DNA from: Pycnococcus provasolii
Lineage: Eukaryota > Chlorophyta > Pseudoscourfieldiophyceae > Pseudoscourfieldiales > Pycnococcaceae
DNA length: 64,000 nt
NCBI GenBank assembly: GCA_938743325.2
Contig: OW568868.1
Span: 124,001-188,000 of the forward strand
Direction: 5' to 3'
Part shown: one piece after another, positions 23,589 through 64,000 of the stretch
How positions within the stretch are numbered: the stretch's first letter is position 1
Layout: every line of letters begins with the position of its first letter
Program-made: the position numbers and the translations under genes
The notes under the pieces: model-generated
What the model saw: the letters and a program-made list of their open reading frames with translations, nothing else
What the model was told of the DNA's origin: nothing
The model's database searches: none

Positions 23589-23948
23589 AGAAGAAGAAGA
23601 GAGGGGTGGTGGTGGTGGGTGTACACGCGTTGTTTGCTGCGTTTTGCTTTCTCGGTCTTGTTGTAAGTTAAGATCGATCATGCAGTAATAGCGTGTACTT
23701 TTTTTGATTTCGAAGGGTTCTATCACAATACCGCATTTCATGTCGCGTAGGTGGGAGCTCCACTTGCGCTGGTTTGCAAACAAAGGTTGCACATACAGTT
23801 GATTTCAGTTTGTCCGGAGGGGAACTCAATGTTTTTTATTAATTGTTTGTTCCCGTACAACATAACCCGAATCCTAACCCTGCTTGCAACTCAAAGTATT
23901 TAGAACAACATGCATGCGCCTCTTTCGCTCATCGAAGAAGACCGCCGC

Positions 23949-24021
23949 GAAAAGTTGACATTTTATGTCGATCTCCTGTCAAAAAGTTCTCCCTTTCTCC
24001 CTGTCAAAACTTTGTTCCTCT
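23949..24021 (+). repeat. Left arm of inverted repeat flanking the trypsin-ankyrin gene
   Basis: The reverse complement of this stretch matches 26647-26730 almost base for base (shared core GACAGGGAGAAAGGGAGAAC), apart from about 15 extra bases in the right arm. It contains GTTGACATTTTATGTCGA, a near-palindrome. Confidence 0.85.
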
Positions 24022-24040
24022 CCATCCTGACCCTACCTAA

Positions 24041-24067
24041 TAACCCTAACCCTAACCCTAACCCTAA
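24041..24067. repeat. Interstitial telomere-type tract (CCCTAA)4
   Basis: CCCTAA units about 170 bp upstream of the protease ATG at 24237. Confidence 0.9.
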
Positions 24068-24236
24068 TTCACCCTGGAACGAACGTGAGTCAGTCCTTGC
24101 AGAACCTCTCTCTCCCTTCATCCAGTCCCTTGGACTTCTGACTTCTCAGCTTCCCTCTTGCACTTCCCAGTTCTTCTCCCTCCCAGAAAAAAAAATATGT
24201 GACCGGTCATTTCTGGTGGTGAATATTCGTCAATCC

Positions 24237-27064: not shown

Positions 27065-30000
27065 TTAGTTCATCACCACGAGCGCAAGCAGGAGCATGAA
27101 CAGAGGAGCACCAAAAGTAGTCGCCGAGGATTCCTTCGCAGGCACCTTTACTGGCGCCTTAGTTGTGACCTTTGTCGTTGTCGTTGTCGTCGTCGCCGTC
27201 GCCTTTGTTGTCGTCTTCGTGGCGGTGGTAGTCACAGTCTCCGCATCCGAAGCAGGCGCCGACGTCGTCTTGACCTCAGGCACGAATCGAATCACCGCGT
27301 ACTCGCCACCCTTCGATCCCGTGCACGTAATACCAGAGCTCGTCGCCGCTGTCTCCACATTACAAGATCCACTGCCAGTTAACTCCACCTTTCCGAGACT
27401 CGAGTCAACACAGGCACATCGATCCGATGCACCGGCGCCGGCAGACGACATGAGAGGCATGCGCACGGAAAATGTAGCACTACCCATACCCACGGCTGTG
27501 TCCACATTGTCCTTCATCACCGTCACCGAAACACTTGCAACGCCGCTCACCACGGTGGGCGTTTGCATGCCATTCAAGCTTGGCATGTTGCCAATGGCAA
27601 GCGTCGATAACAAACTCGAATCTGGCAGGTAAGTCATCTTCACCCTGAGGTCATCAGGGCATGGGCTCTCCGTGGACTGGCACTGGTACTCGGTCGCAAA
27701 GCTCTTGTCGTAGCTAATCGTAGGACTTTCATCCGCAAATGCGAGCAAATTTCTCCTCCTATTCGAAGAGCTGAAGGCGGTCTCGTAACCGCCGAGGTTG
27801 CTCGCGTAGCGTTTGCCAACAACCACGCCAAGTCCACCTTTGCTCTTGACAACCACAGGTTCCTCATCTGGCGTAGCCTGATTGAGGAAACTCTCTCCAA
27901 TCGCATTGAGCGTGTTTTTGATGGACGTCATCGTGGAATCAGCCTCCTGCTTCTTCGCTAGCGTTTCCGTTTCCGTCGACGGCGCGTCACCCGAAGGCGG
28001 CGCTCCCATCGTCGGAGGCACATTGTCTTCCACAGATGGAGTAGTTGTCGTCTGCGCCAATGTGCCAATCACGTCTAACATGCCAGCAGCCAAGTCGCTC
28101 TTCTCCTCCTTGGTCTGCGATTTGTCGCTGTCCAGCAGTGCAGCGCTCTTCTCCATCACTTTCAGCACGTTCGCCTTCGCCTTCTTGCTCAGCTTATTCG
28201 CATTTGCCTTGGATGTCATCGACTTTCCGGCGGCAATCACCTGCCTGGCGTCAACAGCCTGCTGGTTCTGATCTTTCGTCGACTCCTTCTCCACGATAGC
28301 CAGCAGGTTCTCGGAGACATCTTGCAAAATATCCTTCTCAGCCTGCAAGGCTGCCTCTTTCACCGTCTCATTCACCGGCTCACCAGGCTGCAGCAACGTC
28401 GCCTCCTCGCGCATCGTGAGCACATCGGCAACCTTCAATGCCGCAGTCACGCCCTGCGCGCTATTGCCCGAGCTTATCGACCTCTTCATCTCCTCAGTCG
28501 CATCGTCAACCACAGCCTGCTCAACCTTTTCCACGGGTTTGACAACCACCGTGGTCTTATCGCATCCGCGACCTCTCATCGTGTCAATGGCACATCCATA
28601 CACCGTCAGCTCCTTAGCGTCACCCTCTCCCACCGGAAGTTTGGCCTTCACACCCGATCCTGAAACATCTGGAATCGGAACTCGGATGCCCTCCGACATG
28701 TAGCCAAACTCGTACGTGAGTTCGTCGCGCTCCTTGTCAAACATCGCGTCAAGATTGAAAGAAAAGAGGGTTGTCTGCGCAAGTCCCTCGGTCGGCGAAA
28801 CCTTGAGACACTTTCCTTCCGCCGACTTGCAAACAGGCGGCGCATTCACAGGAACAGCCAGAGGTGGAGTCTCCGACTCCAGAGTCTTGCCATCGCGACT
28901 CAGCTTAGAAAGCTTGAGAGAGAACTCAGGAAGGATGACGTCTTCGCGGGAGAAGAATTCGCTTTCTACCACAAGCGTTCGACTCGTCGTGCCAGTCTCC
29001 GGTGTGAACTTTGTCAGGTTGACACCCTCGACGTTCACGCTCCATTGATACTGAACATCAGACTTCGCATCGGTCATGTCAACTTGCAGCTTCAGCTGAT
29101 TCGCCTGGTTGTGCTTTTCGTAGCACGTTTTCGTATACACGCCGCCGCACAGGCGTTCGATCGAGCCAATGGGAAGATCCTCGTCACCGACAACCACGTC
29201 TACCTCGGAGGTTGCCTCCGCCTTCACCCCAGATGTCGCGCTAACCTTGAGCGTGAATGCGTACGTCACATTCGACTTTAAGTTTACGCTTTCTTTGCTG
29301 GACTTGATGATGTACTGCGTTGCCGTCACCTCGCTCTTGGAGCGGATCTCCTCGTCGGTTCCCGACAAACACGGCGCGCCATCCGATCGAGTGCACGACC
29401 AATCGAGCCCGGGGAAGGCTGAAATGCCGGCGGTAGGATTGTCCGGGTCCCTGATGTCAGCTGTGACGACGAGATCCTGGTCATCACGTGCCACGCGATT
29501 CGGACCGAGGCTCACGATTAGCGGAGACGCAGTCGGAAGGAGTGACAGGCTTGCCGTGCCACTAGCACCGCCAAAGGAAACCTTGAGGTTCACAGTCAAG
29601 GGTTCGTTCGGCTTAACCTGGCCTGGTGCGATGACAAGGTACGGCGAGTCTTCGAACGACAGCGCTGGCTTCTGCACCGACTTTTCAGACAGGGTCCACT
29701 CGTACGACACCTTAGAACCCTCACCGCAGAGGCTGTCAAGCTCCACCTTGGAGCGCAGCACGAATCCCTCGCTCGCCGCAAACTCCTGCTTTTCGCGGGC
29801 ACCGAAAATGATTTCAGGCGCAGCCGCCGCCAGCTTCTCGAAGGCGAACGAGCACGTTGACGTCTTTCCTAGCGATGACGTGACAGTCGCCGATATGTTG
29901 TACTTTCCCGCTGACAACTTCGACGTGTCAACGGCAGCGATGGCTGACAAAGCCGCGCCGTCAACCGGCTTCACGTCGAAGGCGCTCGTGGGAACAGCAC

Positions 30001-33000
30001 TCCATTCAACGCTCTTGAGAGCTCGACCCGTGGGGTCGTATGAGCCGCCGGCGTTGAACTCGGCCATCTCGATGCCTGTGGCAGCAGTATCATCACATGG
30101 CGGCGCGATGGACATCGGACCTCGGATGATGCACACGGGAGGATCCAACTTCAAAGGAAGGCTGACCTTTGCCACGACCGAATCGCCGAACGTGCGGCCT
30201 GCCATGTCCTTCAGTCTCCCCGTGTCCATGTCCTTCAGCTTCAGCTCTCCGCCATCCTCGATCGTAGGATTCCGTCCAAGAATAACGGTGAGCGTGTTGC
30301 CCTCCGCGGTCACGTAGGCACCAGTCCCGAGCGGCATGGACGTGTCCGTGGTAAAAATGCTGCGAGCGGAGACCAAGAATGGCTGAGCTTCCGCCTCGAG
30401 TGTTACCTTGATCTCCGTGAGGTCATTGCTAAATGTTGCATTCGGCAGTAAGCTAGGCACCTTGGAAAGCACACAGAAGCCCTTGCTCCTCTCGGTGAAG
30501 ATTCCCTTTTCTTCTGTGCAGCGAGTGAAGAAACTTATCTGGCTTTCTATGCAGGCGTAGCCTTCGCCAAATTTTTCTGCACACGTCTTGTCATCGTCGC
30601 ATGATTCCGCATTCATTTCCTCAGCTTCGGCCATAAATGCATCACACAGGCTCGTGCAGACACCCTTACACGCTCCCCTCGTATCAGTGCCGGTCATCGG
30701 ATCGCACGTCACGTCCGGCTTGCACGTCATATCTGGTGTTGTAGAGTCAGTAGTGGCAATGGTCACCTCGCCGCGGGTGCACTGGCCCATTTTGCAGTCC
30801 GACGTGTTCTCGCACGCGCCACCAATATCAACCGTCCTCGATGTGTTAGCAGAGTCCACGGCGGTGCTCACAGTACCCAGGAGAGCGGTGTCCAGATTGC
30901 TTGGGATAGCCTCGTCAGCCTCGCAGAGGTTCGTGTCATCGCCCAGACAGTCTTTATTGCAGACGCCGAGGGCCATGCAAAGGCTCTTTGGTCGAACAGA
31001 TAGTTCTGGATTCTTGAATAGAACCTTGCGGTAAGACTTGCACATATTCGTAAACGATTCATCGGTGCTTGAATCGGAGGAACAAATATTTCGGAACCAG
31101 TCGGACATGTAGTAGGCCAAGTCCTCCACGGAGGATTCCCTATTCGAGAAAGTTGTCGTGAAATTCTTCATCGCCGTCGTAGTAGCGCTTTGGCACCCCG
31201 AGCAATCTTCACATACGTCGACGCACTCAACCCTGGTATAGCACGCCGACGCGAGCTCGCACTTGCGAGGACTGGAATCGTAATCCTCACACTTAATTTC
31301 GTTTAAGCAACGAGCCTCTCCCATTTGGTCAAATGGATCATATCCCACCTTGCAACTTTCATCCTTTCTGCAGGATTGTTCCCAAGTCATTGTCATCGAT
31401 GGTGAGGAATGCATCTGTGGGCATCCGTCTTGCGTGCCGTCCATGTGACCCACGCGCATGTGCTTATTGCACGGATCATACAGCGTCTTGCACTTGTTCT
31501 CGACCTTGCACTTCGGATTCGAAGAGCACTGCGTTTCGCTCAAACCATTGCACTCGGACGGGAGATCCTCCGGAGGCAACGGAGTTTCAGCTGCCGCCTT
31601 TCGCGCTAGAGACAGAGCAGTTCCCTTGACAACTTCAATTGTCGGTTTCCCCACAATTGATATGTTGAAAGGTGCATTCGATAAGGGAAGAGGTCCAGCT
31701 GAAAGTCCAATGTAGAGTGGAATCATTGTGTTGGGATTTTCGTCAAAGATCTTGATCTCGTAGCTCATTTCAGCGACTTTCTTAGCACTGACGCGGTAAT
31801 CCTCAAGGCTAATATCCTGTGCAATAATCGATCGAAGCATGTCCGCGCCGTGACCAGGCGCTTCACCTGGAACCTTCGGAACCAAGTTGACGGTGCCTGA
31901 CAGCACCATCGTCTCGCCTTCCTTTGGCACATCGTCAGGAAATCCAATCGCCTTGGCACCATCCAAGTAGGATTTCATATCTGCCAGCATCTGTGTTCGA
32001 TTGGGATCGCTTGAGCACACGTCCACCACCTTTTCAATAACTTGCATGCATCCAGGCTTGGTAATATCCATCGATTCTCCAGATTCTTGTTCGCATCCCT
32101 CAAACTCGGAGCTAGGACCGCTATCGAATGGTCGTCCTCCCGCAGAATTGCCCGGACTGAAATCACTGAAGGTGGGAGAATTGCCCTGAAGAAGGTTTCT
32201 GCGACGTGATGGCGAGCTTATGGTAGGATTACTATCGAAGCAAGTCGATGCGATCTTCATGGACTCCAGATTGCATGGAGAACACATGGAGAACATAGCT
32301 CCCATTTCCTGCGTCATCTCACTTGGTGGACACGTTATCAGCACCTTGTCATATGCAGCTTTGCATTTGTCAGCACAAAAGATCTCAACCATTTTGGATG
32401 GATCGGTTGGAGCCGATGGTTCGTCCTGCGCATGTCCACCCAAGCCACAGTCCGTGTTGAATGCCATCATGGTTTCTGTGCATTTCATCATGGTATCTGT
32501 ATAGTTTGTTCCATTCGGTGGCATCATTCCCGGAGAATTCGGATCGTAAGGGTAAGGGCTGTCGCCTGGCATAGGGTAAGGGCTGCCGCCTGGCATATCA
32601 GCTTCGATAGGCACGACGCTGCCGTCCTTGGTGGTTGCACTGGTAATCATGTTCATCGCCATACTCGGATACGTCGCGCCATTCACTGTCAGAGGCGGAG
32701 CCTCCGCAAGCGTTGACACAACCTTGTTGAGATTTTCCATGGCTCCCGTGGTGCCAGCCGAGCTGCTTGCCACATCGACCTTGATTTCGGTGGGCACGAC
32801 CACGGATGATCCGGAAGCTTGCATCAACTTTCGGCCCAATGGCGCAGAGGGCGCAGAATCGCTGAAATAAGCAGTCTTCGATTCCACCGTCACACCGGGA
32901 ATAGTGCTGAAAATCTCTTGCTGATGCGCTACGTGCGACTTGGTGAACGCTTCCAGATCCGTAGTCCTGGGCACGTTCTGGTACATCACGTCCGTCTGAA

Positions 33001-35944
33001 CCTTCAGCATCGTTGCATCAGCAGGAATCTCCTTGGTTGGCATGTCAGGCATCGGGTAAGGAGGCATGTCGTCGCACTTCGGCGGCATCTCATCTTTGCA
33101 GAGTCCCATTGGCCCCGGTTCCGAGCCGTCGGCGCACGTGCAGTTTCCAGTCATCGGGTAAGGAGGCATGTCGTCGCACATAGGCGGCTTCTCATCTTTG
33201 CAGAGTCCCTTTGGCCCCGGTTCCGAGCCGTCGGCGCACGTGCAGTTTCCAGTCATCGGGTAAGGAGGCATGTCGTCGCACTTCGGCGGCATCTCATCTT
33301 TGCAGAGTCCCATTGGCCCCGGTTCCGAGCCGTCGGCGCACGTGCAGTTTCCATGCATCAGGTAAGGAGGCATGTCGTCGCACTTCGGCGGCATCTCATC
33401 TTTGCAGAGTCCCATTGGCCCCGGTTCCGAGCCGTCGGCGCACGTGCAGTTTCCATGCATCAGGTAAGGAGGCATGTCGTCGCACTTCGGCGGCATCTCA
33501 TCTTTGCAGAGTCCCATTGGCCCCGGTTCCGAGCCGTCGGCGCACGTGCAGTTTCCATGCATCAGGTAAGGAGGCATGTCGTCGCACTTCGGCGGCATCT
33601 CATCTTTGCAGAGTCCCATTGGCCCCGGTTCCGAGCCGTCGGCGCACGTGCAGTTTCCATGCATCAGGTAAGGAGGCATGTCGTCGCACTTCGGCGGCAT
33701 CTCATCTTTGCAGAGTCCCATTGGCCCCGGTTCCGAGCCGTCGGCGCACGTGCAGTTTCCATGCATCAGGTAAGGAGGCATGTCGTCGCACTTCGGCGGC
33801 ATCTCATCTTTGCAGAGTCCCATTGGCCCCGGTTCCGAGCCGTCGGCGCACGTGCAGTTTCCATGCATCAGGTAAGGAGGCATGTCGTCGCACTTCGGCG
33901 GCATCTCATCTTTGCAGAGTCCCATTGGCCCCGGTTCCGAGCCGTCGGCGCACGTGCAGTTTCCATGCATCAGGTAAGGAGGCATGTCGTCGCACTTCGG
34001 CGGCATCTCATCTTTGCAGAGTCCCATTGGCCCCGGTTCCGAGCCGTCGGCGCACGTGCAGTTTCCATGCATCAGGTAAGGAGGCATGTCGTCGCACTTC
34101 GGCGGCATCTCATCTTTGCAGAGTCCCATTGGCCCCGGTTCCGAGCCGTCGGCGCACGTGCAGTTTCCATGCATCAGGTAAGGAGGCATGTCGTCGCACT
34201 TCGGCGGCATCTCATCTTTGCAGAGTCCCATTGGCCCCGGTTCCGAGCCGTCGGCGCACGTGCAGTTTCCAGTCATCGGGTAAGGAGGCATGTCGTCGCA
34301 CATAGGCGGCTTCTCATCTTTGCAGAGTCCCTTTGGCCCCGGTTCCGAGCCGTCGGCGCACGTGCAGTTTCCAGTCATCGGGTAAGGAGGCATGTCGTCG
34401 CACATAGGCGGCTTCTCATCTTTGCAGAGTCCCTTTGGCCCCGGTTCCGAGCCGTCGGCGCACGTGCAGTTTCCAGTCATCGGGTAAGGAGGCATGTCGT
34501 CGCACATAGGCGGCTTCTCATCTTTGCAGAGTCCCTTTGGCCCCGGTTCCGAGCCGTCGGCGCACGTGCAGTTTCCAGTCATCGGGTAAGGAGGCATCGT
34601 CGTCACAGGAGGCATCGTCGTCACGGACACGTTCGTGTTGTCGTAGCACGGACACCACAGGTCGTACTTCACTTTCACTCCGCTTCCCATGTCAATCTCC
34701 TTGGTGCCGTCACATCCACCCGTGTTAGTTCCATCTGGTGCCCCGTAAAGCTCCCTGCATTGCTGCACGGATGTCACCGGACCGTAACAGCCGCTCAGGT
34801 AAGGTGGCTTAAGCTGGATGTGGTAGTGGTAGACCGATTTGCCAGCCGAAACACCTAGCGTGGCATTCGCGGGCACCGGTCCATAGTGGCCGCCGCACGC
34901 GTCGAGATCCTGTGGATGCATGTTGCTAGACTCCATTTGGCCATAAAGACCGACGCCATCGAGCATGACGCCCACAATGGTGCTGTGGTCAGGCGCAGTG
35001 GCGTCATAGTTGCACTTGATGTCCGTGTGATAGTGGTACGGCGTCGCGTGTCCGCCGCAGCTATCCATGAAGAGCTCCGTCAACGTGTTTTGTTTTCCAC
35101 ACGACTGGAAGAGCGTCTCCTCGCACGTTCCCACGTCCATACCACCTGGGCAGTAGCCGTAGTACTTTGTTCCGTCAAAGCAGGGGTACGGCGGCCGCGA
35201 ATTGGTCGTGGCACTTCCGTCAGGCGTCGTACCGAAGCCCGCTTCGAACGGGCCGTAGATGTTCTTTCCGTTGGTCGCATAGCCGACATTGCCAAGCGAT
35301 GGCGCCGCGGTTGGTCCAGTGTAGCTGGGGATGCGCGCCGTGCCAATGGTGCCCGTAAACTTGCCTGTGTTTGCATCGTACTCCACCTGTAGCGTTGACA
35401 CGTCAGAGCTGCCAGGACTCGGTGAGCCTGTCACCGGCCTGGGACTCGTGGAGTTCGTGGAGTTCGTGATCACGGGCCCCGGCGACGTGCCATTAGGCGG
35501 CATCTCGCACTTAGGCGGCGCCTCTGTACCAGGACAGAGTCCCAGTAGGCCGGTGGACGTTTTAGGCGGTGCTTTGCCGTCGGGGCACTTGCAGTTCGTG
35601 GAGTTCGTGATCACGAGCCCCGGCGACGTGCCATTAGGCGGCATCTCGCACTTAGGCGGCGCCTCTGTACCAGGACAGAGTCCCGGTAGGCCGGTGGACG
35701 TTTTAGGCGGTACCGTGCCGTCGGGGCACTTGCAGTTCGTGGAGTTCGTGATCACGGGCCCCGGCGACGTGCCATTAGGCGGCATGCCACCAGGGATCGG
35801 CGCGCCACCAAAAAAAGCGGCCGCGCCATGAAAGCACGCTACATAAGCAAACACGCCCAAGAGCCACAAGGGGGAGCCCCATATGGGAGCCCCAGAGCCA
35901 CGGGAGCCACCATGGCTGCCACGAGCACCTCGAGGCATGGCCAT
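27065..35944 (-). CDS. Giant surface protein: YHYH domain, 34-residue Cys repeats, REJ/PKD-like and GAIN/GPS-like region, GPI-type tail
   Basis: 2,959 residues, unbroken, from the ATG at 35944 (MAMPRGARG), which precedes a signal peptide (LWLLGVFAYVACFHGAAA). In order: Cys-rich units (NCKCPDG...LCPGTEAPPKC); a YHYH domain (about 185-418) with PYHYHTD and VYHYHIQ; fifteen 34-residue repeats NCTCADGSEPGP (about 448-964); a SEA-like domain with GRKLMQ; Cys-rich stretches with SRRRNLLQG; REJ/PKD-like modules (about 1938-2465, e.g. FNAGGSYDPTG...VEWS); and a helical GAIN-like region ending ITCTGSKGGEYAVIRF, like a degenerate GPS. A Thr/Lys linker and one hydrophobic tail close the protein, so a GPI anchor or single span replaces the polycystin channel. 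Function unknown. Confidence 0.8.
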   Translation of the reverse strand: MAMPRGARGSHGGSRGSGAPIWGSPLWLLGVFAYVACFHGAAAFFGGAPIPGGMPPNGTSPGPVITNSTNCKCPDGTVPPKTSTGLPGLCPGTEAPPKCEMPPNGTSPGLVITNSTNCKCPDGKAPPKTSTGLLGLCPGTEAPPKCEMPPNGTSPGPVITNSTNSTSPRPVTGSPSPGSSDVSTLQVEYDANTGKFTGTIGTARIPSYTGPTAAPSLGNVGYATNGKNIYGPFEAGFGTTPDGSATTNSRPPYPCFDGTKYYGYCPGGMDVGTCEETLFQSCGKQNTLTELFMDSCGGHATPYHYHTDIKCNYDATAPDHSTIVGVMLDGVGLYGQMESSNMHPQDLDACGGHYGPVPANATLGVSAGKSVYHYHIQLKPPYLSGCYGPVTSVQQCRELYGAPDGTNTGGCDGTKEIDMGSGVKVKYDLWCPCYDNTNVSVTTMPPVTTMPPYPMTGNCTCADGSEPGPKGLCKDEKPPMCDDMPPYPMTGNCTCADGSEPGPKGLCKDEKPPMCDDMPPYPMTGNCTCADGSEPGPKGLCKDEKPPMCDDMPPYPMTGNCTCADGSEPGPMGLCKDEMPPKCDDMPPYLMHGNCTCADGSEPGPMGLCKDEMPPKCDDMPPYLMHGNCTCADGSEPGPMGLCKDEMPPKCDDMPPYLMHGNCTCADGSEPGPMGLCKDEMPPKCDDMPPYLMHGNCTCADGSEPGPMGLCKDEMPPKCDDMPPYLMHGNCTCADGSEPGPMGLCKDEMPPKCDDMPPYLMHGNCTCADGSEPGPMGLCKDEMPPKCDDMPPYLMHGNCTCADGSEPGPMGLCKDEMPPKCDDMPPYLMHGNCTCADGSEPGPMGLCKDEMPPKCDDMPPYLMHGNCTCADGSEPGPMGLCKDEMPPKCDDMPPYPMTGNCTCADGSEPGPKGLCKDEKPPMCDDMPPYPMTGNCTCADGSEPGPMGLCKDEMPPKCDDMPPYPMPDMPTKEIPADATMLKVQTDVMYQNVPRTTDLEAFTKSHVAHQQEIFSTIPGVTVESKTAYFSDSAPSAPLGRKLMQASGSSVVVPTEIKVDVASSSAGTTGAMENLNKVVSTLAEAPPLTVNGATYPSMAMNMITSATTKDGSVVPIEADMPGGSPYPMPGDSPYPYDPNSPGMMPPNGTNYTDTMMKCTETMMAFNTDCGLGGHAQDEPSAPTDPSKMVEIFCADKCKAAYDKVLITCPPSEMTQEMGAMFSMCSPCNLESMKIASTCFDSNPTISSPSRRRNLLQGNSPTFSDFSPGNSAGGRPFDSGPSSEFEGCEQESGESMDITKPGCMQVIEKVVDVCSSDPNRTQMLADMKSYLDGAKAIGFPDDVPKEGETMVLSGTVNLVPKVPGEAPGHGADMLRSIIAQDISLEDYRVSAKKVAEMSYEIKIFDENPNTMIPLYIGLSAGPLPLSNAPFNISIVGKPTIEVVKGTALSLARKAAAETPLPPEDLPSECNGLSETQCSSNPKCKVENKCKTLYDPCNKHMRVGHMDGTQDGCPQMHSSPSMTMTWEQSCRKDESCKVGYDPFDQMGEARCLNEIKCEDYDSSPRKCELASACYTRVECVDVCEDCSGCQSATTTAMKNFTTTFSNRESSVEDLAYYMSDWFRNICSSDSSTDESFTNMCKSYRKVLFKNPELSVRPKSLCMALGVCNKDCLGDDTNLCEADEAIPSNLDTALLGTVSTAVDSANTSRTVDIGGACENTSDCKMGQCTRGEVTIATTDSTTPDMTCKPDVTCDPMTGTDTRGACKGVCTSLCDAFMAEAEEMNAESCDDDKTCAEKFGEGYACIESQISFFTRCTEEKGIFTERSKGFCVLSKVPSLLPNATFSNDLTEIKVTLEAEAQPFLVSARSIFTTDTSMPLGTGAYVTAEGNTLTVILGRNPTIEDGGELKLKDMDTGRLKDMAGRTFGDSVVAKVSLPLKLDPPVCIIRGPMSIAPPCDDTAATGIEMAEFNAGGSYDPTGRALKSVEWSAVPTSAFDVKPVDGAALSAIAAVDTSKLSAGKYNISATVTSSLGKTSTCSFAFEKLAAAAPEIIFGAREKQEFAASEGFVLRSKVELDSLCGEGSKVSYEWTLSEKSVQKPALSFEDSPYLVIAPGQVKPNEPLTVNLKVSFGGASGTASLSLLPTASPLIVSLGPNRVARDDQDLVVTADIRDPDNPTAGISAFPGLDWSCTRSDGAPCLSGTDEEIRSKSEVTATQYIIKSSKESVNLKSNVTYAFTLKVSATSGVKAEATSEVDVVVGDEDLPIGSIERLCGGVYTKTCYEKHNQANQLKLQVDMTDAKSDVQYQWSVNVEGVNLTKFTPETGTTSRTLVVESEFFSREDVILPEFSLKLSKLSRDGKTLESETPPLAVPVNAPPVCKSAEGKCLKVSPTEGLAQTTLFSFNLDAMFDKERDELTYEFGYMSEGIRVPIPDVSGSGVKAKLPVGEGDAKELTVYGCAIDTMRGRGCDKTTVVVKPVEKVEQAVVDDATEEMKRSISSGNSAQGVTAALKVADVLTMREEATLLQPGEPVNETVKEAALQAEKDILQDVSENLLAIVEKESTKDQNQQAVDARQVIAAGKSMTSKANANKLSKKAKANVLKVMEKSAALLDSDKSQTKEEKSDLAAGMLDVIGTLAQTTTTPSVEDNVPPTMGAPPSGDAPSTETETLAKKQEADSTMTSIKNTLNAIGESFLNQATPDEEPVVVKSKGGLGVVVGKRYASNLGGYETAFSSSNRRRNLLAFADESPTISYDKSFATEYQCQSTESPCPDDLRVKMTYLPDSSLLSTLAIGNMPSLNGMQTPTVVSGVASVSVTVMKDNVDTAVGMGSATFSVRMPLMSSAGAGASDRCACVDSSLGKVELTGSGSCNVETAATSSGITCTGSKGGEYAVIRFVPEVKTTSAPASDAETVTTTATKTTTKATATTTTTTTKVTTKAPVKVPAKESSATTFGAPLFMLLLALVVMN
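33063..34596 (-). repeat. Coding 102-bp minisatellite, 15 copies
   Basis: Fifteen head-to-tail units of exactly 102 bp encode the 34-residue Cys repeat. Nine central units carry the LMHGN variant and six outer units (four upstream in the protein, two downstream) carry PMTGN. The central nine look identical, which points to recent unequal exchange or conversion. Copy number is likely variable between strains. Confidence 0.9.
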
Positions 35945-37200
35945 TCGAATATTCACTCGAGTCGAATGAAAATGAACCGATCGATTCCAATCCAACAGGG
36001 GAAGGGAGCAGGTGCCGACTCAAACAAAATACAATAAATGTTGGGGTTCCGAACAAGGTCAAAGTGGCGCCGAAACAGTGCACTGGGCGGAAGGAAGCAG
36101 CGCACAATTAATTCCTGTACCAAATATGTAAATGGGAAGCACGCCCCGTTACGTGGCGGCCCTTCCTAAAAGCTCGTTCCAATCAGCTCGACGACCTCCA
36201 CCTACTTATACGATAGTCTATCGTAGGGAACGCTTCGATCGAGCTTTGGCGCTGCTGCCTGCCTGCGATGCGAATCCAGGAAAATATTTCTATTTCAGTT
36301 CGTTGCATGAGTTTTTTTGCTTCTCTTCATTGATGCCAACCGGCTCGATAGTCGGCACGCGCACCTCGCGCGCGCTCATCTTTTCCGTCTCTTCTTGGTC
36401 TACTGTAAAAAGTTTTTACTGTATTTTCCTTGCCGTATTCTTCATCTTTTGGGGATCCGTATTCCTCTTTCTCTCCCCCCAAAGCTTTGCTTTGGCCATT
36501 GGTTGTCGCCTGTCGGTCTCTCTCCCCCCTCGTTGTCGCCTTGTCGTCGTTGGCGCGCGCCTTGTTGACTGCCCTCGGGAATCGGGATGCAATCGGGATA
36601 TGCACGTGATGTTGTTAACGTGAATCCAACGTGCCATACATAAAAAATCACGTACTGTACAACAAAATCACTCACGTGCTTGAATCAACAACAAGGACGC
36701 AATCTTGCAAGGCAAGGCAAGTGGCAAGCCTTCTGAGATTTTGTTTGCTTTTCCTAAAGAAAGAACCCCTACCGGGTAAAGGTAACCCCCTAAGTCCTAA
36801 CTTTCCATCTCAGGTAACCCCGAACTGAACCACTCTCTAGGTAAACCCCTAAACCTTAGGGGCTTCCCACAGAATTCTGCTTCCCACCTGTCAGCCTGTA
36901 GGCTTCCCAATGGACTGCTTCCCAAGGCCAAGGCAAGTACTTGCAAGGGGTGGTTAGGGTTAGGGTTAGGGTTAGGGTTGTTGCACCCTCCCTGGCTGGT
37001 TGACTGGTTGAGTGGTTGTTGCCTTCTTGGACGCCCCTTTCAACCTTTGCTTTTTTCGCCCACTCCATTTCGCCCAGGCATTTGTTTTTTCCCATATTGT
37101 TGCGATATTATTTCTTCGTGGTTATAGTTACTGTATTCATTCCTTTCCAGTATAGTTTGATTATCATTCTTCATTCTTGATTATATTTGGTTCATTCAGG
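35945..37200. other. Divergent 1.25-kb intergenic region
   Basis: Separates the giant surface-protein gene (minus) from the HDAC gene (plus). Contains repeats of GGTAA(A)CCCC at about 36778-36850, repeats of GCTTCCCA at 36862-36922, and a TTAGGG tract at 36953-36980. A 163-codon open frame at 36132-36623 has no protein-like composition. Confidence 0.5.
36953..36980. repeat. Interstitial telomere-type tract (TTAGGG)4
   Basis: Four TTAGGG units about 220 bp upstream of the HDAC ATG. Confidence 0.9.
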
Positions 37201-40544: not shown

Positions 40545-41272
40545 AGTATCAAATATGTACCTTAAGGGGGAGAAATGAACACCGTACACTTAAAACCGTA
40601 GGGTGAGAAATGACACCTTCAAGGGCAAAATGAAGGGGGAAATCCAAATAAATTGACAGATAGAATATTTATGGGACTCTTTTTTTATAGAAAGAGGGGG
40701 GGGGGGGGGGAATACGGTACCGGGTAAGGCGCGCGCCCTTTTCCCTTTTCTAATAATAACCTTAGTCTAAGAGGTTTGACTTTGAGCTTTGACCACCATG
40801 TCACCATGCATGTCATCATGCATGTCCATGTGACTATGTGAGAATGCGATGTGGATAAAGTTCATAGGTATGTAAGGTCCTACCTCCTTCCTCATCATTC
40901 ATCATTCACAGTTCACGTACCCGGTAAGGTTTACTGGGGATCCGTCTGTGATTTCAGCAATACAACCCACCGATGCACGTGTCCAGAAACGGTTTTTTTT
41001 GGGTTCTATTGTTTTGTGTGTGTGGGAATTGAAATGGTTCTGTTTTTTTTAAATTAAAAAAAAAAAAAGGTGTTGTCGTAACTTGGCGAGTTGGTGACTC
41101 GTATAAGAACTTTGGCCATCCTTAAGTTAAGTTAAGGCCGGCCAGTTCTCGTGCTCCGACGACGACGATCCCGATCCCGATCCCGATCCTCACGGGGCCC
41201 CGGTTTTGCTCGAGAGAAATTAATTCGCAACGGAAGGTCCTTAAGGAATTCCGGGTGAGGTAGGTGAGTGAA
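40545..41272. other. Divergent intergenic region with simple repeats
   Basis: Contains a long G run at about 40692-40709, repeats of CATG-containing words at 40798-40832, an A/T run at about 41042-41068, and CCCGAT repeats at about 41168-41187. No gene is seen. Confidence 0.5.
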
Positions 41273-44200
41273 ATGGGAACCACCAAGCTCAACAAAATGT
41301 TCACACGCGTGTCGTCTACGCTATCTCTCGGAACCAACGCGACAGAGACGCAAGCAAACGTCGTGTGCTTTCACGGAAACGGCGCCAACTCAGACATATC
41401 CACGCTGCAGCTTGCTAACCTCGGAGGACTGCTGCTCGATCGAACGAAAGAAGGTCAAGGCATGGCTATACACCACGTGCAAGCACCTTACACAGCGCCG
41501 GCAAACAACGCGTTCGTCCAGGAGTACTCGAGACCGCCATTCTCCTCGTGGTGGGAAACGGATAGCGGTGCCGACATCGTCAAAAGCCTGGAAGCCGCCG
41601 TCGAGCACCTGCAAGCTCAGCCACATATCCTCGCGAACGCCGAGAACAACATCGCGTACGGCTTTTCCGCCGGCGCGGCTGTGTGCGCGCTGCTGTCTGT
41701 GCCTGCCGTGTGCGAAGCAATGGGTCTCGAAAGAACGCCGTGGCGAGCGGTGGTACTGACGTGCGCTGCAGGTGGCGACAAAGCAATCGCGGTGTGTGCA
41801 AGCGAGCTGAGCATCAGCCTCGCCGAGATGAAAGCTGACATCCCGAGCTTTCATGCGATCGCGCTAGATGATCCGCTCAAAGCGCACGGTGAGCAGATTG
41901 CTGCTCTCTTCGCGACGCACACGAACGGAGCCACGATCATCCGCAGCGTGGCGTACTTTCCCGGGTCTCACGGTGTGCCGCGTGCGCTTGCAAAAGACGT
42001 AGCCTTCCAGGCTTCCTTCAACGAGTGGCTGCGTTGTGCCGAGCAAGTGACAACCGCGAACGCGAGCAGTGCCGTTGTGCGGGTGCGGAAGATGACAATG
42101 ACAAGGAAGCTATCCACAAGGTCGACGTTCGGAAATCGAAGTTCAGACGTTTGCAGCATAACGTCAATGCTTAACAGCATTGACATGGCCGACGTTATAG
42201 AAGGTTCGGTGGGAAGCCTGCGCATGGCGCAATCGCATTCGATAGTGCGTCACGAGCCGAAACTGCCGAAGGACAAAATCCCAACCTCGCTTCGAATGTG
42301 CCTGTCTCAACCGCCGGGAGGGTCGCCTTTCGTGCGAAAACCAAACGGCAAACACGCGGTGTCCTACGAATCTCTGCTAACCTTCATCGATGGCGATGGC
42401 GATGTCAGGCGCATCGGAATCACGCGGAGTGACGACGTCGTGCTTTTTCCCGCACCGCCTGGTCCCATTGGCGCGATTGCCGCCCTCGTGTTCGCATGCC
42501 AGTGCACCGCAGCACCCTTCGATCCACGTGCCAGCAAAGCCGAGTGGGTAAAGGCGATCGGTCAGATCAATCCCAAGGTCATCGTCAGCTTCGACGGCTT
42601 GAGCAGCAGCATCCCTCATTTAGATGAGGCTGCCGCCGAGTGCAATCGCAGTGTGCGGATGCTTGTGCCTCGCAGCGATGATACCGGATACTTTGATTTG
42701 GTAGCGCAGAACCTCGAGGCGACTGACAATTCAAGACAGCTCACCACGAGCCTCGATGACATTTCGTTCTTGCTCATGACTTCTGGCACGACATCACCGA
42801 AATCTAAGTTAGTCCCTTTACGCGCCGGTGCACTCGTGACCAACGGCACGGCGATCGCATTGTCCCTTCGCCTTACCTCGAAGGACGTGTGCCTAAACGT
42901 TATGCCGCTGAACCACATCGCTGCTCTAACAGCCCCCCTGCTCGGCTCGGCTTGTGCCGGAGCGCAGGTATTATGCGCAGAGAAAAAGTTTGAGCCTTCG
43001 GCATTCTTGGATCTCGTCGTGTCCACGAACCCGCGACCCACGTGGTTTACCGCGGTGCCGACGATGCATGTCTCCCTGGTTCGCCAAGCAGGCGAACATT
43101 CGCGTGCTCCACCGCATTCCCTTCGCCTCGTTCGATCCGGTGCTGCAGCTCTCAGTCATGCGGATGCCGCAGCAATACGGTCCTACTGGGGCGTCCCGGT
43201 GGTCACCTCGTATGGTATGAGCGAGCAAATGCCGATCACGTCTAGCACGCCCGACGATGGCGATACTGCCGCTGATGATGGCACGGTGGGCAAACCAGTG
43301 AGTTCATCATCCATTGCGATTGTTGACGACGTGCTCCGTCCCGTTGAAATCGGAGTCGCGGGAGAGGTTTGTATTAGCGATCCATGCATGACTGCGTACC
43401 GCGACGAAGCGACGGCGAATCGCAATTCGTTTTTTCTACTAGGATCAGAACGTTTCTTCCGAACAGGAGACATGGGTAAGCTTGACGCAACCGGAAGCTT
43501 GCAACTCGTCGGTCGAGCGAAGGAGCTTATCAAGAAGGGTGGTGAGCAGGTGAATCCGCTCGAAGTCGAGGAGGTGATCAACGAGCACCCGGACGTGAAC
43601 AGTTCATTCGTTTTCGGAGTTCAGTCACCAATATGGGGTGATGAGGTGGGAGCTGCCGTCATCCTGAGCGCTGCAACGCTTCCAAGCGAGGACATGGTTG
43701 CAAGCCTGCGCCAGCATTGCGCTGATCGCCTTGTGGCGCTGAAGGTTCCGACGCACTTTCGCATCGTGGCATTCGAGGATCTTCCGATGACGAAGACAAA
43801 CAAGGTGAAACGAATTGGTCTTGCGGAGCATCTCGGCGTGGTTGCCAGGGAGGATGGTAGAGTTGGTGCAACATGCAGTATTGCACGTGCCGCTCCACCT
43901 GCCCGCCCATCCATTGCACTTAACGGACTTCGATATGTTGCTGCGGTGGGCGTGATGTTTAATCACATCGGTGCCGTCTGGCAGGGCGAAGATGAGCGCA
44001 ATCCAAGGACATTCGGGCCGTCCTTTCACTCTGCGCGAGCTAGTACGCTCTACTTCCCAGCGACAATCTTCTTCGTGCTCGGAGGCTTTCAGCTCAGCGC
44101 GACGCTCGCCGCTCGTCCCGTTCAGAAGCGCGGGAAGTTTTACCGTGCGCGGCTGCAGACTCTCATGCCACTTTACCTGTTGGCGGTATTTCTGGCTCTG

Positions 44201-45679
44201 ATCAATCTTACGGTCACATGCAATCATCGCACGTACAGCGAACAATTCAGTTGGCAGCCTCATCCGGAGACAATGAGCGGTGACGCCCGGTGTCAGAGCT
44301 CACCCGTGGCGATGCCATACGGACTTTGGCTGTGCACAACTGTGCTCGTATTCGCTTTAGGACTTCAGGCCTGGTTTCCATTTTGGCTACTTAGTGGATG
44401 GCTTCTATTCTATGCATGGTTCAACAGCGTCTACCACTTTGTGATATTTGTCTTCCCCAGCCTCCACAATGCGCTGGTTAAAGATCGTGGCAACCGCCCG
44501 CGCATCTGGTTGTGGATTGGAGCGTGGTCCATGCTTACGGTTGCCTCCGCGGGGCTTATGGCTCTTTCCTACGCCTTCCCTGCTTGGAAGGAAACTGCCG
44601 ATGCCTCGTTGGCAAAGTCGTGGATTCACAATCAGCAGAATATATACGCTCTTGCAATGATGCTTTTCCCGCCGTACTGGGTTCCCTGCGTTGGACTTGG
44701 CTGCGCGAGCTACTTTTGGTTCGACGCGACGCGACCACACGAAATGAGAGCCGAACATTCGCGATGGTACGGGTGGACATGCGACGTGCTTACGGTGGCA
44801 TTTGTGGCATTCCACGCAGCCATGTTCTTCGACTTGGACTTTCCTTATCCAACGAGCCTTGTCGGAAAGATGTGGGAAGTTACAGCTGACGAAGCTCACA
44901 CGTGGGATGTGGGTATGAAGCGGTACATTTGGAGCGTCTTGATAACACGCATGTACACGCCGCTGATTGCCGCCTGGATTGCGCTGCTAGCCATTCCAAA
45001 CTTGTCGGCAACATCGCGTGTTCTGTCATGGAATCCGCTTTCTCGGTCCCTTGCTCCGACAGCCTACGGCTGCTTTCTCTTTCACCAGATTGTTGGGCAG
45101 TGGTATTGGTGGATCACCCGTTCTGGCGCAAAACTCGACGGCAGCGGCACCTATGCCACAAGTTTAAAAGGTGACTGGTCATGGTGGTCCTATCCCAAAA
45201 ACTATTATTGGTTTAGTCCTCAGCCGATGCCGGTTGCCTGGTATGAATTCTACAGCGTCGTCTCGTTGACGACGCTGTTCTCGGCATTCGTCAACGCTGT
45301 GGCGCTTGCGCCTCTCACGAGGCTGTACACGAAGGCTGTGGATGTGCTCCTCCGCAAGTTTGCGCCATCTCCTTCGTCTTCGTCGTCGGATACCAACGCG
45401 TTGGATGAGGAGGAGCAGCAGGATTACAGCGCACGCGACATTGTCGCGGACACCGTCGAGGAGCTGACTGGTCTGCGAGACATGCCCGATTCCATGACTC
45501 TCGACGAGCTCGGATTGACGTCCGTGAGCATTCCCGTTTTGGTTGGCTTGCTGAGCGCGAAAGATGACTCGCTCGCGCACCTTGCGACCGCCGAGGTTGC
45601 CTCCGTTCGTGACCTGGGTGAACTTGTGCAACTCGTCGACAAGACGCATCAAATCTGGACGTACGGCGCGGGCATCTGA
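41273..45679 (+). CDS. Multidomain fusion: FSH1-type serine hydrolase, AMP-binding ligase, membrane acyltransferase-3, acyl-carrier domain
   Basis: 1,468 residues from the ATG at 41273. Residues about 20-265 are an alpha/beta hydrolase like FSH1 (VVCFHGNGANS, nucleophile motif YGFSAGA near 128, His in GSHGVP). Residues about 360-850 are an adenylate-forming ligase with LLMTSGTTSPKSK (P-loop), SYGMSEQ, FRTGDMGKL and the catalytic-Lys region TKTNKVKRIG. Residues about 880-1350 are an acyltransferase-3 integral membrane domain (LNGLRYVAAVGVMFNHIG, then about ten hydrophobic segments). Residues about 1390-1460 are a carrier domain with the phosphopantetheine site LDELGLTSVS. The likely logic: a carboxylate is activated, loaded on the carrier and transferred to an acceptor at a membrane, with the hydrolase editing or releasing. 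Acid and acceptor are unknown. Confidence 0.85.
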   Translation: MGTTKLNKMFTRVSSTLSLGTNATETQANVVCFHGNGANSDISTLQLANLGGLLLDRTKEGQGMAIHHVQAPYTAPANNAFVQEYSRPPFSSWWETDSGADIVKSLEAAVEHLQAQPHILANAENNIAYGFSAGAAVCALLSVPAVCEAMGLERTPWRAVVLTCAAGGDKAIAVCASELSISLAEMKADIPSFHAIALDDPLKAHGEQIAALFATHTNGATIIRSVAYFPGSHGVPRALAKDVAFQASFNEWLRCAEQVTTANASSAVVRVRKMTMTRKLSTRSTFGNRSSDVCSITSMLNSIDMADVIEGSVGSLRMAQSHSIVRHEPKLPKDKIPTSLRMCLSQPPGGSPFVRKPNGKHAVSYESLLTFIDGDGDVRRIGITRSDDVVLFPAPPGPIGAIAALVFACQCTAAPFDPRASKAEWVKAIGQINPKVIVSFDGLSSSIPHLDEAAAECNRSVRMLVPRSDDTGYFDLVAQNLEATDNSRQLTTSLDDISFLLMTSGTTSPKSKLVPLRAGALVTNGTAIALSLRLTSKDVCLNVMPLNHIAALTAPLLGSACAGAQVLCAEKKFEPSAFLDLVVSTNPRPTWFTAVPTMHVSLVRQAGEHSRAPPHSLRLVRSGAAALSHADAAAIRSYWGVPVVTSYGMSEQMPITSSTPDDGDTAADDGTVGKPVSSSSIAIVDDVLRPVEIGVAGEVCISDPCMTAYRDEATANRNSFFLLGSERFFRTGDMGKLDATGSLQLVGRAKELIKKGGEQVNPLEVEEVINEHPDVNSSFVFGVQSPIWGDEVGAAVILSAATLPSEDMVASLRQHCADRLVALKVPTHFRIVAFEDLPMTKTNKVKRIGLAEHLGVVAREDGRVGATCSIARAAPPARPSIALNGLRYVAAVGVMFNHIGAVWQGEDERNPRTFGPSFHSARASTLYFPATIFFVLGGFQLSATLAARPVQKRGKFYRARLQTLMPLYLLAVFLALINLTVTCNHRTYSEQFSWQPHPETMSGDARCQSSPVAMPYGLWLCTTVLVFALGLQAWFPFWLLSGWLLFYAWFNSVYHFVIFVFPSLHNALVKDRGNRPRIWLWIGAWSMLTVASAGLMALSYAFPAWKETADASLAKSWIHNQQNIYALAMMLFPPYWVPCVGLGCASYFWFDATRPHEMRAEHSRWYGWTCDVLTVAFVAFHAAMFFDLDFPYPTSLVGKMWEVTADEAHTWDVGMKRYIWSVLITRMYTPLIAAWIALLAIPNLSATSRVLSWNPLSRSLAPTAYGCFLFHQIVGQWYWWITRSGAKLDGSGTYATSLKGDWSWWSYPKNYYWFSPQPMPVAWYEFYSVVSLTTLFSAFVNAVALAPLTRLYTKAVDVLLRKFAPSPSSSSSDTNALDEEEQQDYSARDIVADTVEELTGLRDMPDSMTLDELGLTSVSIPVLVGLLSAKDDSLAHLATAEVASVRDLGELVQLVDKTHQIWTYGAGI

Positions 45680-54162: not shown

Positions 54163-54561
54163 CTAGCTTAGGATCATCCTCCTTCCTCTTCTACTACCAC
54201 CACTGCTGTTGTTCTTCCGCTGTTGCTCCTCCTCCCCCTCTCGAAATGCATCAGCGAGCGCCGCATCTGCGTATGCTGTTGTTGTTGTCGATGATGGCGA
54301 CGGTGTTTCGTACTGCTTGATTCGCGGCATATTATCATTATCGGAGTCGCTATCATCTTGCCCATCATCGTCATCATCATCAGACGCACCATTCGTCAGC
54401 CGAAGCCGACGACGCATGATTCGATTTTGCGCAATTTCGAAGATTTGCATGGGCAGGTTTACCAATAACGCAATAAGGCGCCACTTCCAGTACAGCACGT
54501 AGCACAGCAGACGCCACCACCACGAATCCTTGAGCGGATCCGTCGCAAACCACGAACCCAT
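54163..54561 (-). CDS. Small single-pass membrane protein, unrecognised
   Basis: 132 residues from an ATG at 54561. A Trp-rich hydrophobic segment (WWWRLLCYVLYWKWRLIALLVNLPMQIF) at residues 14-41 is followed by a basic helix (QNRIMRRRLRL), an Asp/Ser-rich acidic stretch and a charged tail. The shape suggests a membrane-anchored cytosolic tail. Convergent with the methyltransferase gene and divergent from the selenoprotein gene. No family recognised; moderate chance it is not a gene. Confidence 0.45.
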   Translation of the reverse strand: MGSWFATDPLKDSWWWRLLCYVLYWKWRLIALLVNLPMQIFEIAQNRIMRRRLRLTNGASDDDDDDGQDDSDSDNDNMPRIKQYETPSPSSTTTTAYADAALADAFREGEEEQQRKNNSSGGSRRGRRMILS

Positions 54562-54799
54562 ACAGGCAGTAAGTGTAAAAACGAAGTCTAAAAAAAAGGC
54601 GTAAAGCTCCAGTGGATAGACACTAAGAATTCAATGGCCGTGACTGCTGTGAGGAAGGTGCCGACGACTTTTGACGTGTACGTGTGTGAGGGAGGGAGGG
54701 AGGGAGGGAGGTACAACAGACTACAGAGGTGTATGGCCAGTGAGTGACACGGTGTCAAAACTAACCCGAATGATTTGATTTTTGAAATAATACGGAATT

Positions 54800-54860
54800 G
54801 GGTTAGGGTTAGGGTGATTAGGGTTATTAGGGTTAGGGTTAGGGTTAGGGTTAGGGTTAC
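54800..54860. repeat. Interstitial telomere-type tract, about nine TTAGGG-like units
   Basis: Runs of TTAGGG with two interruptions (GTGATTAGGG, TTATTAGGG) lie between the divergent small membrane gene and the selenoprotein gene, ending about 115 bp before the latter's ATG. This is the longest such tract in the window. Confidence 0.9.
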
Positions 54861-54975: not shown

Positions 54976-55386
54976 ATGGCGTCCGGCTTCCGCACTCGCG
55001 TCAGCTCCAACAGCGCGCCAACGGGAACCAAGAAGGGGTCTCTGGGAATGCCGGTGGTGCTCTCCTCCGGTACTACTACCGTTGAAGAAGCGGCTGCTGG
55101 CTCAGGCCTGAAGTTCCTTGTCAAGTACGCCGGATGCTGAGATCCGCACGGGCCGGAGTCGAGGGACATGGCGATCGACATGGTTCAAGATGTGTTCCCA
55201 GGCGCGGACGTCGCTTGGGAACGAACACCACGCGTCAAGCCTGAGCGTTTGCTGGTTTTGCTGGAAAATAGTGGTAGGGAAATTGCGAGCGTACTGCAAG
55301 AGCACATCAGCGACGACTACCGCGGTCCTGGTTTCGACGAGTTATCGGCCGCGCTTATTAAGCTCAAGTCTGAAGCACAGCAATAA
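54976..55386 (+). CDS. Candidate selenoprotein with a Cys-Sec (GCU) motif, thioredoxin-like fold
   Basis: Read with the in-frame TGA at 55138-55140 as selenocysteine, the frame runs 136 residues to a TAA at 55384. The TGA follows KFLVKYAGC at residue 55 and is followed by DPHGPESRDMAIDMVQDVFPG. Beta strand, Cys-Sec at a turn, then an alpha helix is the redox-site layout of the Rdx clan (SelW/SelT/SelH). The later part, KPERLLVLLENSGREI...GPGFDEL, continues seamlessly with good protein composition after the TGA. A SECIS-like hairpin lies in the 3'UTR about 70 bp after the TAA. The first 45 residues are Ser/Thr-rich and may be a transit peptide. A redox role is inferred. Assignment to a named selenoprotein family is tentative. 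Confidence 0.75.
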
Positions 55387-55437
55387 AATATGTGGATTAA
55401 GGATAGGATATGAAAGCAAACGAATTTCTCGGCTGAA

Positions 55438-55532
55438 AGGAGCGAAACGTAAACCGTGACGGGCTTGCGCCAAACTCCTCCATAAAAAAATAGGATGGCG
55501 CGGTCTCTGATGACAACAGACGACGAGCTCAC
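55438..55532 (+). promoter_or_regulatory. SECIS-like element in the selenoprotein 3'UTR
   Basis: Read as RNA: 5' core GUGA at 55456-55459 and 3' core UGAU at 55508-55511 form the non-Watson-Crick quartet. Helix II pairs 55461-55471 with 55497-55507 (ten pairs including G-U, one C-U mismatch). The apical loop opens with AAA at 55472-55474 and contains a mini-stem (CCAU with AU.GG around an A run), as in form 2 SECIS. A lower helix pairs GAGC (55440-55443) with GCUC (55527-55530), leaving an internal loop below the quartet. GUGA instead of the usual AUGA is a known permitted variant in SECIS search patterns. Confidence 0.7.
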
Positions 55533-62573: not shown

Positions 62574-64000
62574 TTAGAATGCATCGCCATCGGCGTGTGC
62601 TGTGGTCTGCTTCATGCGTTTGGCTGACGGCTCATCGGCCGATGCCTGCGCTGAAGTCCTAATGAAATTTAGTACGCGGTAACCCCACGACTTAAGTACC
62701 TGCATGAGGTGTTGAATTCGTTGAAAAGACAAAGGTTTTGTGAGTGCATCAGATGGGTTATCGTCACCTGGAGTATGAAGGAGCTTGAAGACTCCAGCAC
62801 GAGCGTGCTCGCGCGTAAAGAACAATCGCGTCCTGATATGCTTCATGGACGTGTTGTGAATCGGATTGGTCAAGATATTTCTGCACGTAGTTGAGTCGCT
62901 GAAGAGGAAAGTTTGCACGCTTAGTTGAAAAGCATGAAGAAACAACTGCTTCCAATAGAGAAGATGAGTGACTGCGGTCGCTCCGGCGACGGTCTCGGCC
63001 TCTCCACTGCTCAGAGTAGTATACGGCTGATGCTTGCAGTACCAATCCAAAAGACAATTGCCACATGTAACATACAATCCAGAAATACTTCGCCCAGTTA
63101 TAGGACAGCTTGCGTGACTCGCATCAACCAGAACTGATAGGGCCAGTGGCTGATCGATAGCCTTATACTCCAGACCTTCTTCACATGTGTTGACCAGGTA
63201 AGTAAGAATCCGAATCAACTGATTCCAATGCGTGGGATCAGGATTACTTAACGCCCGAGAAATAACAATCAGCGCAACGCTGATATCATGACGTGTGCAT
63301 CTATTCACCCACAGAAGAGCTGAGAATAAAGAAAGGAAAGGCCTAGTCTTCATCTTGAGCTTTTCAGCCTCGGTCAGCTCAGACTTAACCTTAATGACGA
63401 AATGAGATGACATAGGAGTATTAATTTCCGGGTTCTGCTCCAAATTGTAGGTGCGAGCCAAATCCATTATGTATGCCTTTTGGTTTAGCAGAAATGATCC
63501 ATCAGGTAGATAGTTAACCTTTATGTTGAACATTCGGGTGAGCTGCTCCTGCTGCGAGCCAATATCGAATCGCTTGCAGAGTGCATCCATGAATCTGTCA
63601 CGTTCTAAGTGATCGGAGTAGGCGATCTTTCCATCGTCCGTATGCACAAACAATGCAATGATGGGAACTCCATTCTTGTGAAGGAACCAGAGACTGGTGT
63701 CGGCGGGTGACTGAGACATGCCATACCCTTCCAAGAAAGAGAAGAAGTCAACCATCCAGTTGTGCCCGCTCTGACGCAATCCGTAAAGAGACTTGACTAA
63801 CAGCCATATCAATTCGTTTCCATTTTCATCGTAGCGCTCCAGACCATGTGGCGGCTTCATGTAAATCGTCTCAGTCAGGTAGCTATGAAGGTAAGCAGCG
63901 CGGACATCGAACTCGTCCATCTTCATTTCATACGTTACCACGATAAACATAAACATCCGCATGGTAGATACCTTCGGAGTAGATGCGTATGTCTCAAAGA
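62574..64000 (-). mobile_element. Ty1/copia retroelement, pol 3' part (reverse transcriptase and RNase H), continues past window
   Basis: A minus-strand frame of more than 460 codons matches the copia-type reverse transcriptase (FDVRAAYLHSYLTETIYMKPP, SLYGLRQSGHNW) followed by the copia RNase H region (SVLVDASHASCP, LSSGEAETVAG, HIRTRLFFTREH). The visible part looks whole, which suggests a fairly young copy. The element's 5' parts and one LTR lie beyond the window; I could not define the other LTR with confidence in 62380-62573. Confidence 0.85.

Follow-up and report, generated by a model that had tools for sequence, protein, structure and literature searches.

Does the in-frame TGA at 55138 end a short peptide, or is it read as selenocysteine (Sec) within a longer protein? 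In the 64-kb stretch of DNA analysed here, referred to below as the window, an ORF opens on the plus strand with an ATG at 54976 and closes with a TAA stop codon at 55384-55386. Its single in-frame TGA (55138-55140) is codon 55, and the frame stays open for 81 codons beyond it, as a preliminary description of this region had recorded. The TGA directly follows a Cys codon, as was also recorded there, the sequence TGC TGA at 55135-55140 specifying Cys54, the only Cys in the 136-residue candidate protein, and then codon 55. The features of the locus are listed below with the evidence on which each is based.

54976..55386, plus strand: coding sequence of the 136-residue selenoprotein candidate, with the TGA read as Sec55 (frame and coding scores)
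54976..55095, plus strand: N-terminal 40 residues, low confidence in the model, a possible targeting sequence (composition, AlphaFold2)
55096..55383, plus strand: predicted thioredoxin-like domain, residues 41-136, β-α-β-β-β-α (AlphaFold2 from a single sequence, Foldseek)
55135..55140, plus strand: TGC TGA, Cys54-Sec55, putative vicinal redox pair (translation)
55440..55530, plus strand: SECIS-like element of type II (GUGA type), located where the 3′ UTR is expected (pattern scan, folding)
55457..55511, plus strand: SECIS core with quartet sides, helix II arms, AAA and mini-stem (pattern scan, folding)

Considered as a whole, the observations are best explained by a small selenoprotein in which a hairpin aids the insertion of Sec at UGA 55138, with Sec55 at the position of the Sec of SelW, a reading to which we assign a probability of roughly 0.78. 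The 54976-55386 region is then probably a real selenoprotein gene that encodes a SelW-like variant with a vicinal Cys-Sec centre. Protist selenoproteins are easily overlooked, as gene finders stop at TGA.

The upstream neighbour of the candidate is a methyltransferase gene on the same strand, and the downstream neighbour is a convergent gene encoding a TPR-CS protein, the frame of which ends at 55654. A 3′ UTR is expected in the 267 nt between the TAA and the TPR-CS frame, and the hairpin is therefore placed within an expected 3′ UTR. A possible short ORF on the minus strand (54163-54630) lies between the methyltransferase gene and the candidate; inspection by eye shows a run of acidic residues and a hydrophobic segment, and it has no Pfam match above the cut-off. 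A TTAGGG/CCCTAA-type tract (54800-54859) is located just upstream of the start of the candidate.

The in-frame coding score is +9.6 bits before the TGA and +19.5 bits after, each the best of the six frames, and the score after the TGA is higher than in 78% of a window-wide sample of 815 stop-free frames of 243 nt. A continuation of this length is common in the GC-rich window: 23 of 130 ATG-to-TGA ORFs with at least 50 codons have at least 81 open in-frame codons beyond the TGA. The split frame itself is therefore not significant, the open continuation taken alone being weak evidence, and its frequency favours an explanation in which translation truly stops at the TGA to give a 54-residue peptide, or the ORF is a decayed gene copy, and the downstream frame and hairpin are coincidental. 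We consider this improbable, as coding scores above 9 bits on both sides of the TGA are present in only 3 of the 23, namely the ORFs at 54976, 59075 (antisense to the TPR-CS gene) and 20494 (minus strand) and, among these, only 54976 has a strict SECIS-like match behind its final stop. ORF 20492-21565 (minus strand) has 337 codons from ATG to TGA, followed by 189 open in-frame codons (36.8 and 13.2 bits), and has no SECIS-like match on the minus strand in either the strict or the looser scan described below.

TGA is a normal stop codon here, and terminates 6 of the 12 other ORFs checked in the window; that these 12 have no in-frame TGA is by construction, as the ORFs were delimited by stops. 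Apart from the gene at 54976-55386 itself, there is nothing to suggest that this organism reads TGA as sense, and TGA-free frames of 1599 and 1472 codons would be unexpected were TGA commonly read in this way; with TGA terminating half of the other ORFs checked, this is the least probable of the explanations considered. A tRNA gene search of the 64-kb window found none. Removal of the TGA by an intron is also very improbable. The coding stretch contains 51 in-frame GT-AG pairs whose removal would take out the TGA without closing the frame, but, on a crude score applied to introns within the coding stretch, none combines a good donor with a pyrimidine-rich acceptor, the best donors having 2 of 4 consensus bases and their acceptors at most 4 pyrimidines in 10. 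Such an intron would also disrupt the region of the protein from strand 1 to helix 1, and leaves the SECIS-like element unexplained.

A SECIS-like hairpin in the expected 3′ UTR

The core of the SECIS-like element starts 71 nt after the TAA, and the GUGA/UGAU core, AAA and mini-stem previously described behind the real stop are all present. The 5′ side of the quartet is UGAC (55457-55460), with a G just before (GUGA type), and the 3′ side is UGAU (55508-55511). Helix II has an 11-nt 5′ arm (55461-55471) and a 3′ arm (55497-55507), with 10 of 11 positions paired. AAA is present at 55472-55474, and UCCU (55476-55479) pairs with AGGA (55492-55495) to form a 4-bp mini-stem closed by a 12-nt loop. 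The candidate helix I is interrupted, with two short pieces in which GAGC (55440-55443) pairs with GCUC (55527-55530) and CGU (55448-55450) with ACG (55520-55522). In the available part of PMC11227280, the eukaryotic form serves as the starting point for a type II eukaryote-like SECIS model for Asgard archaea; the lengths of the quartet, upper stem, bulge and mini-stem of the hairpin are within the range of that model, whereas its 12-nt mini-stem loop exceeds the 2-6 nt of the model. According to the portion of PMC2375036 at hand, Ostreococcus SECIS elements have a G before the quartet, as here, and a long mini-stem, longer than that of the present hairpin.

The strict scanner looked for UGA and one further base, followed by an arm of 9-13 nt (no more than one mismatch, ten pairs or more), then AA, a loop whose 8-39 nt are counted from that AA, and finally NGAN. 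Applied to both strands of the window, it returned 55457 as the sole SECIS-like match. A looser scan of the window returned three sites, at 19834, 55457 and 59075, the last of which falls on the TGA of the 59075 ORF. In 60 dinucleotide-preserving shuffles of the window, the strict scan identified 12 sites, equivalent to 0.2 per window or ~0.0008 per 500 nt of one strand, and in 50 kb of E. coli DNA, scanned on both strands, a single site, which would equal ~0.005 per 500 nt. Both rates argue against the coincidental hairpin of the true-stop explanation, although the rarity of the hairpin is somewhat overstated because the scanner settings were picked after the hairpin had been seen.

The folding and Rfam results, and the weak helix I, count against the element. 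In unconstrained RNAfold, the five inner helix II pairs are retained at probabilities of 0.99-1.0 and the outer pairs at 0.06-0.52, with a free fold of -27.6 kcal/mol versus -21.5 kcal/mol for the SECIS form, a difference of ~6 kcal/mol in favour of a different outer stem. The RNAfold energy model gives no credit for the non-Watson-Crick quartet. The fold of a 116-nt stretch has a z of -2.0, with 3 of 200 shuffles equally good, and that fold differs from the SECIS form. Rfam has no SECIS match over the window (E up to 1) or over a 264-nt stretch (E up to 10) and this, with the only partial retention of the SECIS stem in free folding, counts in favour of the TGA being a true stop. The Rfam matches to mir-598 and HOXA11-AS were far below their gathering scores and were discarded.

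The preliminary description had argued from three agreeing signs. The hairpin is indeed rarer than expected by chance, but two of the signs are weaker than described, as the long continuation is common and the free fold keeps only the inner part of helix II. Its main claim, a selenoprotein with a SECIS, is nevertheless supported by the hairpin statistics, the coding scores, the use of TGA as a stop codon in half of the other ORFs checked and the prediction of a domain that is complete only if both sides of the TGA are translated.

Predicted fold and comparison with SelW

AlphaFold2, from a single sequence, predicts a β-α-β-β-β-α order for the whole protein (pLDDT 66) and, for residues 41-136, a thioredoxin-like domain with the same order (pLDDT 82.5, pTM 0.74). 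In the model, strand 1 (46-52) ends before Sec55 and helix 1 begins after it, at 59 or 61. As strand 1 precedes the TGA and all other elements follow it, the domain exists only with the TGA read through, and a stop after residue 54 would retain just strand 1 of what is otherwise a completely predicted domain, a further argument against termination at this codon. The predicted fold is a better indication of read-through than the open continuation. The β-α-β-β-β-α pattern is reported for MIEN1 and its SelW relatives in the part of PMC3527542 available to us.

With the full model, mouse SelW (SELENOW, 2npb) is ranked first by Foldseek in the PDB (E 2.8e-3, probability 1.00; TM 0.44 by query, 0.61 by target), MIEN1 is ranked 11, chains of the mitoribosome and of complex I are likewise common among the matches, and none of the PDB matches to this model reaches E 1e-3. 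With the domain model, a Toxoplasma mitoribosome chain is ranked first (E 9.2e-4), the only match reaching E 0.001, followed by two complex I chains (E 1.0e-3 and 1.3e-3), a second Toxoplasma chain and, at rank 5, SelW (E 2.6e-3, probability 1.00; TM 0.55 by query, 0.59 by target). The target-length TM of 0.59 for SelW is the highest among the best 50 matches to the domain model. In BFVD, the structure search returned no match at E 0.001, and its 50 best matches included thioredoxins, unnamed proteins and fragments of polyproteins. A thioredoxin-like topology is well supported by these models, within which SelW is a leading, not exclusive, fold match.

With Cys at the Sec site, 7 shuffles in 5000 equalled the local alignment score of the domain with SelW, and 70 in 5000 equalled that with MIEN1. 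A separate comparison with SelW gave 8 of 4000 for the domain, and 11 of 4000 when the whole protein was aligned. With X at the Sec site, the corresponding numbers were 62 of 5000 for SelW (125 of 10000 in a second run) and 1026 of 5000 for MIEN1. Residues 56-136 alone were equalled against SelW by 64 of 10000 shuffles, and residues 1-54 alone by 9098 of 10000. SelH and two bacterial SelW-like pieces were no better than shuffles in the pairwise tests. SelW is, by these pairwise shuffle tests, the best sequence match among the proteins compared, with the alignment scores providing weak support for kinship. Comparison by hhalign with a three-sequence SelW/MIEN1 profile gave a probability of 0.6% and E 0.1, in the same register as the pairwise alignment. 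In this register, Sec55 is on the Sec position of SelW (which we take to be residue 13), Ala52 is on the Cys of its CxxU and Cys54 is on the residue between; the SelW chain compared has Cys at the Sec position and Ser at the position of the CxxU Cys. FPG and TPxV segments also align with SelW.

The mitoribosome and complex I matches raise the possibility that the selenoprotein belongs to a different thioredoxin-like branch and is related, as a Sec-containing protein, to the mitochondrial L51/S25/CI-B8 or mL53 proteins rather than to SelW. In Foldseek, NDUFA2, mL43 and mL53 have a similar small thioredoxin-like topology, and for the domain model the Toxoplasma mitoribosome chain and NDUFA2-like complex I chains (named by analogy) outrank SelW; the N-terminus of the candidate could, in addition, be a targeting sequence. 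The target-length TM values of the four highest-ranked matches are, however, only 0.31-0.46, below that of SelW, and the two human proteins compared pairwise have no sequence similarity to the candidate, 4795 (NDUFA2) and 3049 (mL53) of 5000 shuffles being as good as the domain, versus the 7 for SelW. There is also no Pfam match to such a domain, and we know of no Sec-containing member of L51/S25/CI-B8 or mL53. A relative of SelW is the preferred reading, and an origin in this other branch is unlikely.

The candidate and SelW share the predicted β-α-β-β-β-α thioredoxin-like domain with Sec after strand 1, but they also differ. Relative to SelW, the candidate has a 3-residue insertion after Sec (MAFFT) and a 40-residue N-terminal extension. 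The GxFE motif present in the SelW, MIEN1, 2p0g and 2fa8 sequences is absent from the candidate, as is a CxxU or CxxC after strand 1, the CxxU of SelW being replaced by A-G-C-U. Pfam has no match to Rdx/SelW (presumably PF10262) or L51/S25/CI-B8 for either the whole protein or the domain; a match to ACD (E 0.23 and 0.11) was below the cut-off and was discarded. As the CxxU, GxFE and Pfam match were all tested for and all are absent, we do not file the protein as a member of SELENOW, although it looks like SELENOW and probably works like it. The shift of the putative partner Cys from -3 to -1 is the real difference from SelW. The adjacent Cys-Sec had previously been taken to set the protein apart from SelW, and the position of the Cys is consistent with this, but SelW is also the best sequence match and the top fold match to the full model, and the TGA falls on its Sec position.

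Conservation is the usual decisive test for selenoproteins. Scans for relatives, of which those of contigs detect close peptide matches only, with the active-site peptide queried with Cys for Sec, found none of the protein in viral contigs, genome contigs or plasmids, or of the domain in phages, and human SelW likewise had none in viral contigs, nor a three-sequence SelW/MIEN1 alignment in genome contigs. Within the window, the search for a paralogue returned nothing better than E 0.28 besides the candidate itself. A PDB sequence search with the whole protein matched Pizza repeat proteins, which are designed, at a best E of 1.8e-7 (residues 13-60). We discarded these matches as spurious, since the individual stretches score poorly by themselves and the domain, searched separately, has no match up to E 10.

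The putative Cys-Sec centre

SelW, MIEN1/Rdx12, SelT, SelH and SelV form the Rdx group. This grouping is drawn in part from the accessible portions of PMC3527542 and PMC3316567. In the candidate, the SECIS would recruit the eukaryotic Sec-insertion machinery, with UGA 55138 then read as Sec, and Sec55, positioned after strand 1 as in SelW, would be the attacking selenol. The Cys of the SelW CxxU is an Ala here and the only Cys of the protein adjoins the Sec, which leads us to propose that oxidation would generate a Cys54-Sec55 selenenylsulfide; with Cys54 the only Cys, no other residue could serve as an internal resolving thiol. An adjacent Cys-Sec able to form a selenenylsulfide is documented, in the part of PMC10298544 available, for the GCUG tail of thioredoxin reductase. 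There, the GCUG is in a C-terminal extension of a flavoenzyme, whereas the pair in the candidate would occupy an internal loop of a small thioredoxin-like domain that lacks a flavin part. We regard the selenenylsulfide mechanism as tentative, falling a little short of an even chance, with most of the remaining likelihood given to a one-Sec mechanism in which glutathione or another outside thiol participates. The Sec of SelW is needed for its redox-sensitive interaction with 14-3-3, as described in the available sections of PMC10298544 and PMC8508763.

The N-terminal 40 residues are rich in Ser, Thr and Gly, include Arg and Lys, and have Glu37 as the first acidic residue, a composition with which the extension may direct the protein to an organelle. 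It is conceivable, although less likely than not, that the candidate represents a new family, possibly organellar, in which the CxxU of a SelW-type scaffold has been replaced by a vicinal Cys-Sec like that of thioredoxin reductase, with an eight-membered selenenylsulfide ring after strand 1. The excerpt of PMC7539508 consulted lists 42 selenoprotein families in algae, including SELENOW with CxxU and with UxxU, and PDI_e with GUGUU, which indicates that the number and spacing of redox residues vary in algal thioredoxin-like selenoproteins. A SelW with vicinal Cys-Sec is not described in that excerpt, nor is there one in the titles and abstract openings of the open-licence literature, among the matches listed. 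If correct, a SelW scaffold with adjacent Cys and Sec would show that the redox motif of a common, poorly understood family can be rebuilt, and would allow vicinal selenenylsulfide chemistry, beyond thioredoxin reductase, to be studied in a small model protein.

Other features of the window

Pfam matches in the window include a histone deacetylase, a cyclophilin, the TPR-CS protein, a protein with FSH1 and AMP-binding domains, FG-GAP repeats and others, and with this content and its TTAGGG-like tracts the window looks eukaryotic. Additional TTAGGG/CCCTAA-type tracts are located inside the contig at 21595-21621, 24041-24067 and 36952-36979. A trypsin domain and ankyrin repeats are encoded in one open frame at 23904-26633 (plus strand), a combination that, to our knowledge, seems unusual. 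One 1471-codon frame (41264-45679, plus strand) encodes an FSH1-type serine hydrolase together with an AMP-binding enzyme with its C-terminal domain. The minus strand has an open frame of 2984 codons (27065-36019), inside which a 102-bp unit is repeated 15.2 times with 98% match (33049-34604). Tandem repeats of 174 bp at 14193-15404 and 15522-16718 lie inside a frame that has FG-GAP_2 matches, and a Copia-type reverse transcriptase (RVT_2) is encoded on the minus strand at 62577-63998 and runs past the end of the window.
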